A stretch of DNA of 47,322 nucleotides. It comes from Actinomycetota bacterium (lineage in GTDB: Bacteria; Actinomycetota; Actinomycetes; S36-B12). This document shows positions 15,034 to 30,953 of this stretch, piece after piece. Numbering within the stretch: position 1 is the first letter of the stretch; the number at the start of each line of letters is the position of its first letter. The notes below the pieces were generated by a model. The model had not been told where the DNA came from and did not search any database. It was given only the letters and a program-made list of their open reading frames with translations. The stretch spans positions 1 through 47,322 of the forward strand of contig JAQCEO010000010.1 of assembly GCA_027729805.1 (NCBI GenBank), in the 5' to 3' direction. Both the position numbers and the translations under genes were made by a program.

Positions 15034-15267
15034 ATGATGCTCACGCTCGTCGGTAAGCCGGGCTGTCACCTATGTGATGAGGCCCGGGTGATAGTGGCAC
15101 AGGTCTGCTCGGAGACCGGAACCCCCTGGGATGAAGTCTCGGTCCTTGATGAGGTGGCGCTCTTTGATCTTTACTGGGAGAAAATCCCGGTGGTGCTCAT
15201 CGATGGAGTAGTTCATGATTTCTGGCGGGTGGATCCCGACCGGTTACGCGCGGTTTTATCCCGATAA
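15034..15267 (+). CDS. Glutaredoxin-like (DUF836) thioredoxin-fold protein
   Basis: 77 aa; LVGKPGCHLCDEARVIV with CxxC, IPVVLIDG cis-Pro region. Confidence 0.88.
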   Translation: MMLTLVGKPGCHLCDEARVIVAQVCSETGTPWDEVSVLDEVALFDLYWEKIPVVLIDGVVHDFWRVDPDRLRAVLSR

Positions 15268-15364: not shown

Positions 15365-16075
15365 GTGTCAATCTCCCTCGGCAAAGGTCGGCCCCGCGAG
15401 GCCGGTCGTGCTATTCCAGATGCAACGGTAGCCCGGCTGCCGGTTTATCACCGGGTGTTGGTTTCCCTAAGTGCGGCCGGAGTGCAGACCGTTTCCTCCG
15501 AAGCCCTTGCCGCAAAATGCGGAGTAAGTTCGGCCAAATTTCGCAAAGACCTTTCGTATTTGGGGTCGTACGGCACCCGCGGTGTTGGTTACGACGTTTC
15601 CTATTTGACATATCACATCAGCCGGGAGTTGGGTTCTGCGCAACCTTGGGGTGTAGTAATCGTTGGCGTTGGTAATCTGGGCCGGGCCTTGATTTCATAC
15701 CGGGGCTTCACCTCACGAGGTTTCGCGATCGTCGGCCTAGTCGATAATCATCCGGATGTGGTGGGCAAAAGTCTGTCGGCAAGTGAACTCGAATCGGTTG
15801 CGGCCCTGAAAATCCATCCCCTCATCAAACTTGAGGCCGTCGTGGGCGACACGAAAGCTCAGATCGGCGTGATTGCCACCCCGGCGGATTGCGCGCAAGG
15901 GGTATGCGACCGACTAGTGGCCGCCGGGATTCGCAGTATTTTGAATTTCGCTCCGGTGGTCCTCGAAGTACCAGACGGGGTTGAAGTCCGCAAAGTCGAT
16001 CTGGCCGTTGAGTTGCAGATCTTGGCATTCCACGAGCAACGCCGTGGTTATGGTCAGGAGGCGATAAACGCATGA
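15365..16075 (+). CDS. rex: Redox-sensing transcriptional repressor Rex
   Basis: LPVYHRVLVSLSAAGVQTVSSEALAAKCGVSSAKFRKDLSYLGSYGTRGVGYDV winged helix; VVIVGVGNLGRAL Rossmann motif. GTG 15365 with AGGAG upstream. Confidence 0.96.
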   Translation: MSISLGKGRPREAGRAIPDATVARLPVYHRVLVSLSAAGVQTVSSEALAAKCGVSSAKFRKDLSYLGSYGTRGVGYDVSYLTYHISRELGSAQPWGVVIVGVGNLGRALISYRGFTSRGFAIVGLVDNHPDVVGKSLSASELESVAALKIHPLIKLEAVVGDTKAQIGVIATPADCAQGVCDRLVAAGIRSILNFAPVVLEVPDGVEVRKVDLAVELQILAFHEQRRGYGQEAINA

Positions 16076-17745
16076 CCAAGCCAAAGAACCCGGTAATACC
16101 AAATGAGCCAATCAGCACCAGCCCAGGAGAAAGTGTGAATACCACAACCAAGGCCCGCAAGAAGGTGAACTTGGGCTCGGTCGCGCTGGTTGCGGCAGGC
16201 CCGGGTGATCCCGACTTGCTGACACTTCGCTCGGCGGCACTACTGCGTGATGCCGAAGTCGTCATTGTTGATGCTGACGCGATTGAGATCGCGACTGCCC
16301 ATGTAAATCCAGGCGCCGAAGTGATCATCGCGGTTGACCAAGAAGGTGCTGCTCTAGACCAAGCCGAGCGGGCAAAGCTGATAGTCAACGCGGCCCGCGG
16401 CGGTAAGCGCACCGTGCGATTGATCGCTGGCGACCCGGTGGTCGATGGCACGTTGCTGCATGAGGCGGCGGCACTGCGAAAGGCGAAGGTGCCGTTTGAG
16501 GTAGCGCCAGGTGTCAGCGAAGTCACCGGGATCCCTGCTTACGCTGGATTCGGTTTAACCGGTGGCCGCACTCGGCAATTTCGAGTCGTCGATGCAAATG
16601 ATGCGGACCTTAACTGGGCTGATCTTGTTAATCCCCGCATCACTCTTGTGGTACTAAATGGCGCAGACAAGGTTGCCGAAATTGCGGCAATGCTCGTACA
16701 TGCGGGCGCTGATCCGCAAACCCATATTGCGGTCACTCGTCGTGGCACCACCGTTGATCAGCGCACCATCGCTGGCACCTTGGCCGAGATCGGAAGTATC
16801 TCAAAGCTGATGAAACTCACCGGGGTTGGCATCGTGGTCGTCGGCGATGTCGTGGCACAGCGCGAGAAATTGGATTGGTTCGAGGTCAAGTCACTGTTCG
16901 GGTGGCGGGTGTTGATCCCACGAACCCAAGACACCACGGGCTCGATCATGTCGATGCTGCGCGGGCATGGGGCGGTGCCGATGGAGGTACCAACGATTTC
17001 GGTCGAACCACCGCGTACTCCCCAACAGATTGACCGGGCAATTCACGGTCTGGTTTCTGGTCGCTATGAGTGGATTGGTTTTACCTCGCTTAATGCGGTG
17101 CGGGCCATTCGCGAAAAACTTGATGAGTACGGCCTAGATGCTCGGTCCTTCGCCGGCCTCAAGGTGGCCGCGGTTGGTGACAGCACCGTGGCCTCGCTCA
17201 TCGAATTCGGCGTGCGGCCGGATCTGGTCCCGGTGGGCGATCAGTCAACCAGTGCGTTACTTGAGGACTGGCCGATATACGACTCATTGACGGATCCAAT
17301 CAATCGGGTGTTTTTACCTCGCGCCGATATTGCAACCGACACCTTGGCCGCCGGCTTGGCTGAACTGGGCTGGGAAGTCGAAGACATCACCGCCTACCGC
17401 ACCGTCCGGGCAGCGCCACCGCCCGCTGAGGTGCGCGAAGCCATCAAGACCGGTGGTTTCGACGCGGTTTTGTTCACCTCGAGCAGCACGGTGCGCAACC
17501 TGGTTGGCATCGCGGGCAAGCCACATCACACCACCATCGTGGCGTGCATTGGTCCGCAGACCGCCAAAACGGCACAAGAGCATGGGTTACGCGTTGATGT
17601 GCTTGCCGGCACCAGCACCTTGTATGGGTTGGTGGAGGCGGTCGCGGCCCACGGCGAAGTACTGCGTGAGGCAGCTCTTGAGGCCGGCGAGGGTAGTTGG
17701 CGCCCGAGTCGTCGTCGCACCGCCGCGCGCCGCAAGGTTACGTAA
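16072..17745 (+). CDS. hemD: Fused uroporphyrinogen-III C-methyltransferase-like / uroporphyrinogen-III synthase
   Basis: 557 aa; N-terminal tetrapyrrole methylase fold (LVAAGPGDPDLLTLRSA, VAPGVSEVTGIPAYAGFGLT), C-terminal HemD (GWRVLIPRTQ, TSLNAVRA, FTSSSTVRNLVG). Confidence 0.93.
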   Translation: MTKPKNPVIPNEPISTSPGESVNTTTKARKKVNLGSVALVAAGPGDPDLLTLRSAALLRDAEVVIVDADAIEIATAHVNPGAEVIIAVDQEGAALDQAERAKLIVNAARGGKRTVRLIAGDPVVDGTLLHEAAALRKAKVPFEVAPGVSEVTGIPAYAGFGLTGGRTRQFRVVDANDADLNWADLVNPRITLVVLNGADKVAEIAAMLVHAGADPQTHIAVTRRGTTVDQRTIAGTLAEIGSISKLMKLTGVGIVVVGDVVAQREKLDWFEVKSLFGWRVLIPRTQDTTGSIMSMLRGHGAVPMEVPTISVEPPRTPQQIDRAIHGLVSGRYEWIGFTSLNAVRAIREKLDEYGLDARSFAGLKVAAVGDSTVASLIEFGVRPDLVPVGDQSTSALLEDWPIYDSLTDPINRVFLPRADIATDTLAAGLAELGWEVEDITAYRTVRAAPPPAEVREAIKTGGFDAVLFTSSSTVRNLVGIAGKPHHTTIVACIGPQTAKTAQEHGLRVDVLAGTSTLYGLVEAVAAHGEVLREAALEAGEGSWRPSRRRTAARRKVT

Positions 17746-17760
17746 CTTAGAGTGGTTCGC

Positions 17761-18408
17761 ATGGGTGCCGAAGATCGAACCGTTGTGCATCTGCTCCGCC
17801 ATGGCGAGGTCTACAACCCAGAAGGTGTGCTGTATGGGCGGCTTCCTGGCTATTTTCTCTCCGACCTTGGTCAAATGATGGCGGTGCGGGCGGCAACCAC
17901 CTTGGCCGACCATGACGTCACCTCCGTTATCTCTTCGCCAATGGAACGTGCGCAGCAAACCGCGCAGCCAATCGCCGCCAAACATGGTCTGGAGATTCAA
18001 ACCGATCCGCTGCTAATTGAGGCGGACAATATTTTTGAAGGTCAGCGAGTTAGTGTCGGCGATGGGGTGTTGATGCAGCCCAAGACATGGCGCCATCTCT
18101 GGAACCCTTTTCGCCCTTCCTGGGGTGAGCCCTATGACGAGGTTGCGGCACGAATGACCGCAGCTGTGCACGCTGCCCGTGATCAAGTCCGCGGCCACGA
18201 GGCGGTCTTGGTCAGCCACCAACTACCTATTTGGGTAGCGCGGCTGCGCGCCGAAGACCGACGACTTTGGCACGATCCGCGCAGTCGGCAGTGCACACTC
18301 GCATCACTTACCTCCCTGACCTATGACAATGACGAACTGGTTGCGATCACCTATACCGAGCCGTCCCGTGACCTCCTGGCCAAGGCCAGCAAGATCGCCG
18401 GCGCATAA
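17761..18408 (+). CDS. Histidine phosphatase (phosphoglycerate mutase-like)
   Basis: TVVHLLRHGEVYNPEGVLYGRLPGYFLSDLG RHG motif. ATG 17761 preferred over GTG 17752 because of TAGAGT 7 nt upstream. Confidence 0.93.
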   Translation: MGAEDRTVVHLLRHGEVYNPEGVLYGRLPGYFLSDLGQMMAVRAATTLADHDVTSVISSPMERAQQTAQPIAAKHGLEIQTDPLLIEADNIFEGQRVSVGDGVLMQPKTWRHLWNPFRPSWGEPYDEVAARMTAAVHAARDQVRGHEAVLVSHQLPIWVARLRAEDRRLWHDPRSRQCTLASLTSLTYDNDELVAITYTEPSRDLLAKASKIAGA

Positions 18409-18416
18409 GCACCACG

Positions 18417-19007
18417 ATGCACCGCTTCGTTCGCCCATTTATCTGTGTGCTTATCGCTGGGGGCGCAGTGCTCTCGCTGAATGCCTGCGGTGGCAGTGAA
18501 GCAGCCGAACCCGCGGGGGCTGATTCAGGCTACGTGGCCGGTGACGGCTCGATTGTGGTACTGCCCGAAGCCGGGCGACTGCCGGCCCCCAGCCTTGCCG
18601 GCACCACCCTTACCGGTGGCAGCTTTGACCTAGCCCAAGCTAAAGGCGAGGTAGTGGTACTAAATGTGTGGGCGTCTTGGTGCGCACCGTGTCGAGCGGA
18701 AGCCGCAGATCTCGAAGCCACTTGGGCCAGTTTCGCCGACGACGATGTGCAATTCGTCGGACTAAACACCAGAGATTCACCGAGGTCAGCCGAGGCTTTC
18801 GTCAAACGCTTCAAAATCACTTATCCGAGTGTGGTCGACACCGATGGGCAACTGCAATTGCTCTTTCGGGACACCCTGCCGCCGCAAGCGATTCCCTCGA
18901 CGTTGCTGGTGGACAAACAAGGACGCGTGGCGGCGCGGGCGCTGGGTATCGTTAGCGAGTCATCATTGCGCGCGTTGATTGAGCCACTATTAGCCGAGCA
19001 ACCATGA
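18417..19007 (+). CDS. resA: TlpA/ResA thiol-disulfide oxidoreductase lipoprotein
   Basis: Lipobox-like LNAC after a hydrophobic signal; VVVLNVWASWCAPCRAEAADLE. Confidence 0.93.
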   Translation: MHRFVRPFICVLIAGGAVLSLNACGGSEAAEPAGADSGYVAGDGSIVVLPEAGRLPAPSLAGTTLTGGSFDLAQAKGEVVVLNVWASWCAPCRAEAADLEATWASFADDDVQFVGLNTRDSPRSAEAFVKRFKITYPSVVDTDGQLQLLFRDTLPPQAIPSTLLVDKQGRVAARALGIVSESSLRALIEPLLAEQP

Positions 19008-19741: not shown

Positions 19742-21301
19742 ATGTCTACCGAGACACCGACACTCCCGCCAATGAATACCCTCGGGTTCCTGCGCTACAC
19801 CTGGCGACAATTGACCAGCATGAAGACCGCCTTGATCCTGCTATTCTTGCTAGCCGTCGCCAGTGTGCCCGGGTCGATATTTCCGCAGCGTGGTAATAAT
19901 CCACTGCTAGTTAATGAGTGGATTGCTCAGAGCCCAACTTTTGGCCCCATTTTCGATGCCATGGGGTTTTTTGATGTCTATTCGTCGCCGTGGTTCGCGG
20001 CGGTGTATTTGCTCCTTTTCATCTCGCTGATCGGATGCGTGTTACCGCGGACGAAGGTGCACTGGCGGGCGATGTTGGCCCCACCCCCGCCGGTGCCTCG
20101 TAATTTGTTGCGCCTCCCAGAATCAATGGAATTTGAAGTGGATGCGCCCACCGGTGCGGTATTGGCACGGGCAAATGCGCATCTATCAAGTCGACGCTGG
20201 CGCCTCGTGCTTACGGAGAAGTCAATTGCCGCGGAAAAGGGCTTCCTGCGTGAGACGGGCAACCTGGTGTTTCACTTTTCACTCATCTTGATTCTGGTGG
20301 GCGTGGCGGTTGGCGGACTATTTGGCTGGAAAGGCAATGTCATTGTGCGCGAAGGGCAGGGGTTCGCCAACACACTAACCCAGTACGACGCATGGGGTGG
20401 CGGACGATTTACCGGCGCGGCGCGGTTGTCGCCGTTTTCGTTTACCCTCGATGATTTCAATGTTGACTTCGAACGCGGTGCGGCTCAGCGGGGATCACCG
20501 AGTCTTTTCGAAGCTGATGTGACCTACCGCCGATCACCCGGAACTGTTGCTGAAAGTACTAGGATCGAGGTAAATTCGCCACTTGCGATTGACGGTGCCA
20601 AAGTTTTTCTAGTCGGGCATGGATACGCACCAAAAATTGTGGTGCGTGATGCAAGCGGTTCCATTGTTTTTGATGATTCGGTGGTGTTCTTGCCGCAGGA
20701 CGGAAACTTCACTTCAACAGGCGTTGTGAAGATTCCAGACTCGGACCCGCAATTGGGGTTTCAAGGAATATTCGTACCAACTGCAGCATCAAATAACTTA
20801 CGTGGGCCGATCTCGATTTTCCCCGGTCCAGACGACCCGGCAGTTTTCCTGTCGGCATGGCGTGGCGACATGGGGCTTGATGCTGGTGCCCCGCAAAGTG
20901 TGTACCGACTAGATACCGCGGCCATGGAGCAGCTTGGAATCGATGCCCTAAGCCCGGGTCAGACATGGGTACTCCCGGATGGCTCAGGGGCCATCGAGTT
21001 AACCGGTTTTGAGCGGTGGGCATCATTCCAGATTGCTTTCGATCCGGGTAAGGAGATTGCACTCCTCGGAGCAATTCTCGCGATGACCGGGTTGATGTTG
21101 TCTTTGTTCATCCGCAGGCGTCGGGTCTGGATAACTGTTGCAGCAACTGCAGGAGGGGGTACGGTAGTTCAAATGGCGGGGTTGGCGCGCATTGAATCGG
21201 CCGACCTGCCCGGTGAATTACAGTTAATTCGCGAGGCGGTCAGTGATTTAGCTGGCATCCCGTCGGCAACGACGGCACCTGATGTGAAGGAGTGGATGTG
21301 A
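19742..21301 (+). CDS. resB: Cytochrome c biogenesis protein ResB
   Basis: 519 aa; LTSMKTALILLFLLAVASVPGSIFPQ N-terminal ResB signature, multiple TM segments, large extracytoplasmic domain. Confidence 0.94.
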   Translation: MSTETPTLPPMNTLGFLRYTWRQLTSMKTALILLFLLAVASVPGSIFPQRGNNPLLVNEWIAQSPTFGPIFDAMGFFDVYSSPWFAAVYLLLFISLIGCVLPRTKVHWRAMLAPPPPVPRNLLRLPESMEFEVDAPTGAVLARANAHLSSRRWRLVLTEKSIAAEKGFLRETGNLVFHFSLILILVGVAVGGLFGWKGNVIVREGQGFANTLTQYDAWGGGRFTGAARLSPFSFTLDDFNVDFERGAAQRGSPSLFEADVTYRRSPGTVAESTRIEVNSPLAIDGAKVFLVGHGYAPKIVVRDASGSIVFDDSVVFLPQDGNFTSTGVVKIPDSDPQLGFQGIFVPTAASNNLRGPISIFPGPDDPAVFLSAWRGDMGLDAGAPQSVYRLDTAAMEQLGIDALSPGQTWVLPDGSGAIELTGFERWASFQIAFDPGKEIALLGAILAMTGLMLSLFIRRRRVWITVAATAGGGTVVQMAGLARIESADLPGELQLIREAVSDLAGIPSATTAPDVKEWM

Positions 21302-22248
21302 ACGCGATGCAGTTGGCGGGGGCCAGCAACGCGGCAGTGTATGCCTCGATGGTGATTTTAACTCTCGCCATGGTTTTGTTTGCTATTTCATTTGCTGCGG
21401 GTCGGCGTCGAACTGGGATTGTACAAACTCAAGTTCCCATATCAGCCTCGATCGGTAGTACCGCATTACTAACTAGACCGGCGCTTGACGCTCCAACTGA
21501 GGACGAGGCTGGTCGCAAGTCCGCCAATATCGGTATGTCATTGACCTGGTTGGGATTTGTCGTGCTGCTGGTCGGGGTGGTACTCCGCGGGGTTTGGGCG
21601 GGTCGGGTGCCGTGGGGCAATATGTATGAGTTCTCGATCAGCACTGCCGTCGGCATCCTCGGCGCATTCTTGATCGTCTCGCTGCGCCGTGATGTCCGCT
21701 GGCTCGGACTCTTCATTGTTATCCCCACCCTGTTGACACTGGGCCTAGCGGTAACAGTTCTATACACCGAGGCGGCGCAGTTGGTGCCCGCGCTTAAGTC
21801 CTATTGGCTCGTTATACATGTAGCTGCCGCCATCATCTGCGCCGGTGCCTTCACTTTAGCGGCGGCAACCGCTGGATTGTCTTTGGTGCAAGGTCGTGCC
21901 GAGCGCCGCGGCAAGGCCGCAATGGCAAAGGTGCCGTCCGCCGAAAAACTTCGGACTTTTACGTACCGGGTACTTGCTTTTGCTTTCCCATTGTGGACGT
22001 TTGCGGTAGTCGCAGGAGCCATCTGGGCCGAGAACGCGTGGGGCCGGTACTGGGGCTGGGACCCCAAGGAGACTTGGGCTTTCATCACTTGGGTTATCTA
22101 TGCCGCATACCTGCACGCGCGTTCAACTATTGGCTGGCGCGGGGATCGAGCCTCGTGGGTTGCTATCGCGGGCTGGGCTGCTTTCCTAATCAATTACTTT
22201 GGGGTAAACATCTTCGTAAACAGCTTGCACGGCTACTCCGGGGTATAG
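21292..22248 (+). CDS. ccsB: c-type cytochrome biogenesis protein CcsB (CcsA/ResC family)
   Basis: WGRYWGWDPKETWAFITWVIYAAYLHAR heme-handling WWD-type signature. Confidence 0.96.
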   Translation: MDVNAMQLAGASNAAVYASMVILTLAMVLFAISFAAGRRRTGIVQTQVPISASIGSTALLTRPALDAPTEDEAGRKSANIGMSLTWLGFVVLLVGVVLRGVWAGRVPWGNMYEFSISTAVGILGAFLIVSLRRDVRWLGLFIVIPTLLTLGLAVTVLYTEAAQLVPALKSYWLVIHVAAAIICAGAFTLAAATAGLSLVQGRAERRGKAAMAKVPSAEKLRTFTYRVLAFAFPLWTFAVVAGAIWAENAWGRYWGWDPKETWAFITWVIYAAYLHARSTIGWRGDRASWVAIAGWAAFLINYFGVNIFVNSLHGYSGV

Positions 22249-30935: not shown

Positions 30936-30953
30936 TCGTGAAGAAGTTCACAA
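30936..30953. promoter_or_regulatory. Putative Rex operator (ROP) upstream of nuoA
   Basis: TCGTGAA-GAAG-TTCACAA; 13/14 match to the actinobacterial ROP inverted repeat TTGTGAA-N4-TTCACAA; rex is in the same window. Confidence 0.75.

Follow-up and report, generated by a model that had tools for sequence, protein, structure and literature searches.

The rex-hemD locus of the window (the whole stretch of 47,322 nucleotides analysed here) is likely what gene loss has left of the actinobacterial rex-hem operon in a heme auxotroph, in which a CobA-like/HemD fusion would have been kept for a second, heme-independent function older than the loss of the pathway. Genes were lost on both sides of hemD, hemA and hemC on one and hemB and hemL on the other, and the remaining pathway has apparently disappeared from the genome. 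The window is part of contig 23 of a metagenome-assembled genome (MAG; 2.03 Mb, 96% complete, 92 contigs) of a freshwater actinobacterium of the order Nanopelagicales with acSTL-type relatives. Auxotrophy in this order is already known: passages of two papers (PMC10202952, PMC12381374) report it for acI/Nanopelagicales and attribute it to Kim et al. 2021. The retained hemD, not the auxotrophy, is the interesting part of the locus, and no report of heme-independent hemD conservation was found in the searchable literature, which did not include Kim et al. 2021.

The features of the locus, in window coordinates, are as follows.

15034-15267, plus strand: glutaredoxin-like protein (DUF836), 5' of rex; PF05768, E 1.3e-16
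15365-16075, plus strand: rex, NADH-sensing repressor; NCBIfam NF003992 equivalog, 330 bits against a cut-off of 226
16072-16075, plus strand: 4-nt ATGA overlap of rex and hemD, the site of hemA and hemC in prototrophic relatives (L104, L105, L108, L109); from ORF coordinates and comparison
16072-17745, plus strand: orphan CobA-like/HemD fusion, 557 aa; PF00590 and PF02602, 94-96% amino acid identity within the genus
16174-16863, plus strand: CobA-like (TP_methylase) domain, residues 35-264; GPGDP kept, FGRGAEE and THR missing
16906-17646, plus strand: HemD (uroporphyrinogen-III synthase) domain, residues 279-525; dN/dS 0.011
17692-17742, plus strand: conserved basic C-terminal tail (WRPSRRRTAARRKVT), residues 541-557; net charge about +7 over the last 16 residues, in all groups
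17746-17760, plus strand: hemD-phosphatase junction, the site of hemB and hemL in prototrophic relatives; from ORF coordinates and comparison
17761-18408, plus strand: histidine phosphatase family protein; PF00300, E 9.8e-35
18417-19007, plus strand: resA-like thiol-disulfide oxidoreductase; NCBIfam NF002854 and PF00578
19004-19741, plus strand: ccdA-like membrane protein; weak DsbD-type match, position and synteny in relatives
19742-21301, plus strand: resB-like cytochrome c biogenesis protein; named from synteny, no NCBIfam match
21292-22248, plus strand: ccsB, heme-handling cytochrome c synthase subunit; TIGR03144, 234 bits against a cut-off of 187.6

The two tight junctions described in the first-pass annotation hold at the level of coordinates, rex ending at 16075 within the 4-nt ATGA overlap with the fusion (start 16072) and the phosphatase (17761) directly following the hemD stop at 17745; an alternative GTG start of the phosphatase lies at 17752. 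The rex start at the GTG at 15365 is supported by sister species, in which GTG and ATG alternate at this position and the upstream AGGAG ribosome-binding sequence is conserved. Neither ORFs nor profile matches revealed hemA, hemC, hemB or hemL at the rex-hemD locus of the window. Immediately 5' of rex, the search for a Rex operator gave just a two-mismatch match, which is at chance level. A Rex-operator-like palindrome at window positions 30936-30953, TCGTGAAGAAGTTCACAA, differs from TTGTGAANNNNTTCACAA at one position; it precedes nuoA (31041) by about 90 bp, which suggests that complex I may still be under Rex control.

That the four genes had been lost from both sides of hemD, as first proposed, agrees exactly with the operons of relatives. 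In L104, L105, L108 and L109, which belong to other families of the same order, rex-hemA-hemC-hemD-hemB-hemL-phosphatase-resA-ccdA-resB-ccsB is complete, and its hemA/hemC and hemB/hemL segments coincide with the two gaps in the window; because these same-order relatives carry the full operon, the four-gene loss around hemD is demonstrated. When the fusion was used as query against named genomes, 80 loci were returned. The order rex-hemA-hemC-hemD-hemB was found in ~30 named outgroup actinobacteria (Kineosporia, Thermomonospora, Actinomadura, Flexivirga, Phycicoccus and others), whereas in ~45 loci from freshwater actinobacterial MAGs (Candidatus Nanopelagicales, acSTL included) hemD lacked adjoining hemA, hemC and hemB. 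The ancestral order rex-hemA-hemC-hemD-hemB(-hemL) is thus verified by gene order in relatives. The window shares with the actinobacterial operon the same flanks and order and orthologous rex and hemD fusion genes, and differs from it in the removal of hemA, hemC, hemB and hemL. Comparison across related MAGs showed the stripped arrangement in all sampled genomes of the window's genus, which rules out misassembly of the locus. Several MAG records titled Bifidobacterium breve (L002, L007, L008, L010, L038, L039) carry hemD fusions 79-96% identical to that of the window and are apparently mislabelled. In L033, L034, L037 and L039 the fusion is kept and rex was not found at the locus; retention of hemD is therefore independent of a neighbouring rex.

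Profile searches of the window genome, in which working controls were detected, gave no match for HemA, HemB, HemC, HemE, HemH or HemQ and no HemL over its curated cut-off, the best aminotransferases reaching 315 and 295 bits against 527. Relocation of the missing genes elsewhere in the genome is ruled out by the joint absence of these six families. A sulfite/nitrite reductase was likewise not matched, and TP_methylase matched just two proteins, one being the fusion and the other an RsmI-sized protein of 302 aa, which leaves no visible siroheme or B12 branch. Heme-requiring proteins are kept: the heme-copper oxidase COX1 in the genome (G000:C3) and CcsB in the window. The suspected heme auxotrophy is thus backed by genomic evidence, and judging by gene content the organism is very likely a heme auxotroph; with the pathway gone, the cell would have to import the heme that its cytochrome oxidase and cytochrome c need. 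It is very improbable that hem genes exist elsewhere and were missed through assembly gaps or divergence. The MAG is 96% complete and in 92 contigs, and HemL-like aminotransferases are present; against this, six families are missing together from searches whose controls were detected, HemA, HemB, HemC, HemH and HemQ are absent from every sampled genome of the genus, and G089, a genome of the same family in five contigs, also lacks HemA, HemC and HemQ and falls outside the set having HemB, HemE or HemH. The auxotrophs reported among 'Ca. Nanopelagicales'/acI resemble the window organism in order, in a free-living freshwater actinobacterial lifestyle, in lost heme synthesis and in retained heme-dependent respiration. 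The present case differs in concerning an acSTL-type family with larger genomes, in demonstrating the loss at the level of gene order, in including relatives that apparently regained the pathway and in analysing the retained hemD.

The first-pass annotation regarded the lone hemD as a surviving relic in an intermediate state, a view that its distribution and conservation contradict. The order survey comprised 148 genomes, 93 without HemB, HemE and HemH and 55 with any of them; HEM4 scored over its cut-off in 84 of the former (90%), among them streamlined genomes of 1.0-1.7 Mb, and in 51 of the latter. The missing HemD in the remaining genomes is about the level expected from incomplete MAGs. 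The stripped pattern characterizes the window's family and a second family, whose genomes are small (mostly 1.0-1.8 Mb). It also occurs in a third family, in two genera whose sister genera have the operon complete. One of these third-family genera is the sister of a prototrophic genus in the fusion tree (support 0.994), which suggests that losses may have been independent and spared the same gene each time, the deep branches of this tree being weakly supported. The stripped locus is an old, stable state in at least three lineages of the order.

Selection on the fusion was estimated by dN/dS between the window's gene set and nine sister species of the genus. The HemD domain gave a mean dN of 0.009 and a dS of 0.80, and its dN/dS of 0.011 is the lowest at the locus, compared with 0.054 for the CobA-like domain and 0.036-0.140 for whole genes. 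High dS with dN near zero rules out selection on the DNA instead of the protein. The strong purifying selection shows that the fusion has a function, not which one. A neutral relic not yet lost, to which the survival of a single gene of the set would point, is hence extremely unlikely: such constraint over a dS of ~0.8, retention in most pathway-less genomes of the order and persistence where a second HemD was gained all speak against it.

The last of these points comes from genomes that apparently regained heme synthesis. HemB was found in 16 genomes of the window's own family. In those examined, a compact hemL-hemB-hemH-hemQ-hemY-hemE cluster divergent from hemA-hemC-hemD, or a rearranged version of it, lies away from the stripped locus; it was seen in L096, L097 (hemY not matched), L098, L099, L111 and L115, all from other genera of the family. 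At least two HEM4 copies are present in 14 of the 16 genomes, the top-scoring copy of each of the 16 has a fusion-like score, and wherever the stripped loci of these genomes were compared the fusion was in place. In gene trees the second-cluster HemA, HemC, HemB and HemL stand apart from most or all ancestral operon copies and outgroups and are not their sisters; these trees, from which the donor lineage is missing, rule out a relocated ancestral operon and fit a putative horizontal gain. A cell with a dedicated second HemD should not need the old fusion for heme. The order provides a clear example in which heme synthesis was lost ancestrally and later apparently regained through a foreign cluster. 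A different arrangement occurs in a small, low-GC genome (L114:779-10340, G073:C30), where a sulfite reductase-PAPS reductase-cysG-CbiX-hemA-hemC-hemD-hemB-hemL run was found; HemE and HemH had no match in that genome (G073), which apparently makes uroporphyrinogen III for siroheme only, to judge from its gene complement. One actinobacterial MAG has a short contig (L191, G136:C210) on which a stand-alone hemD precedes hemX; this looks like contamination.

In the window fusion, TP_methylase matches residues 37-240 and HEM4 residues 296-522, the latter with 197.4 bits against a gathering cut-off of 27.5, and the active-site motifs of HemD are for the most part preserved. The N-terminal domain has the same fold as CysG, NirE and CobA (SUMT) and the same GPGDP motif but scores below the curated SUMT cut-off (TIGR01469, 146.8 against 185 bits), and its FGRGAEE and THR motifs are replaced by GDPVVDGTLLHEAA and AGFGLTGGRT; it is CobA-like only and best not named CobA. 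GPGDP is mostly kept across the fusions, while FGRGAEE and THR, as in NirE, are missing from all those examined, heme makers included. The basic tail (WRPSRRRxxARRKxT type, ~+7 over 16 residues) is present in all fusions, from heme makers and auxotrophs alike, and absent from two stand-alone HemDs inspected. An AlphaFold model of the fusion (pLDDT 81, pTM 0.58) returned, among the matches listed, only the expected SUMT-type fold. Two streamlined genomes (L154, L155; f6 g32) have lost GPGDP, now ALPDCD, and mostly kept the HemD motifs. Long Lys/Ala/Pro-rich (PAKKA-like) N-terminal extensions with a net charge of +13 to +21 occur in L013, L014, L015 and L029, where start codons are uncertain.

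Residue conservation was compared between 56 prototroph fusions and 68 orphan-locus fusions. Among the 132 HemD-domain columns at least 95% identical in prototrophs, 74 are 100% fixed in orphans. Prototrophs show no variation at Q288, S392, G395 and Y442 and 2% variation at A373, yet all five positions changed repeatedly in orphans, with 7-16 parsimony changes each; Y442 became F in 22 of the 68 orphan-locus fusions and is retained in the window's own protein. This residue aligns with a tyrosine of solved uroporphyrinogen-III synthase (U3S) structures. According to a review, mutagenesis points to one possible active-site tyrosine in the otherwise poorly conserved U3S family (PMC7242693), and from the alignment Y442 is presumably that residue. 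The pattern reads as a putative release of catalytic constraint in orphans with another constraint retained.

The second function is probably non-catalytic. With HemC, HemB and HemA absent and no siroheme or B12 users, no source of HemD substrate and no siroheme or B12 use of its product is visible, and in the window genome the HemC that would supply the substrate in the same cell is lacking. Some catalysis on an imported or other bilane may persist, since most of the HemD motifs survive and the window's protein still carries Y442. A salvage enzyme that actively converts imported hydroxymethylbilane or uroporphyrinogen to uroporphyrinogen III or precorrin-2 for downstream use would accord with these same features, Y442 being retained throughout the window's genus, yet we regard it as unlikely: the product would meet no HemE, HemH, HemQ, siroheme synthase, further B12 methyltransferase or sulfite reductase, the CobA-like domain lacks true SUMT motifs even in prototrophs, and prototroph-invariant positions, Y442 included, drift in other orphans. 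The main alternative form of the fusion's role is a tetrapyrrole-binding sensor or carrier. As one specific form of a heme-independent role, the fusion could bind imported heme or porphyrin, passing it to the neighbouring ResB/CcsB or reporting heme status. The HemD fold binds tetrapyrroles, resA-ccdA-resB-ccsB is linked to nearly all examined stripped loci that reach far enough, and NnaR has been proposed to sense heme (PMC6277429); but the linkage exists in heme makers too and is thus inherited, and some positions that are invariant in prototrophs and may lie in the cleft have lost this constraint in orphans, so that we hold this form to be possible but rather doubtful.

The heme-independent second function would most likely be that of a regulator or binding protein that uses the HemD cleft, the basic tail or both, by analogy with the actinobacterial regulator NnaR, in which the HemD domain has no HemD activity (PMC6277429). 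We give about even chances to a dual-role protein with a conserved, possibly essential role other than heme synthesis; auxotrophs would keep this role alone, in a protein that, without catalysis, senses tetrapyrroles, binds nucleic acid or serves as a scaffold by way of its HemD fold and basic tail. The hemD-keeping auxotrophs amount to a natural separation-of-function experiment, in which substrate supply and product users were removed, apparently several times, and the protein is still extremely constrained. If the second role is real, the annotation of actinobacterial HemD is incomplete, and a hidden function positionally linked to Rex redox control and cytochrome c maturation becomes testable. 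The orphan fusion and NnaR are both HemD-fold proteins of actinobacteria, and NnaR, which combines a HemD domain with an OmpR-type DNA-binding domain (PRK07239), works without HemD activity (PMC6277429). The orphan fusion differs in having a CobA-like domain and a basic tail; PF02602 and PF00590 were its only domain matches, with no DNA-binding Trans_reg_C domain. An NnaR homologue is encoded in the same order (L190:1971-3233).
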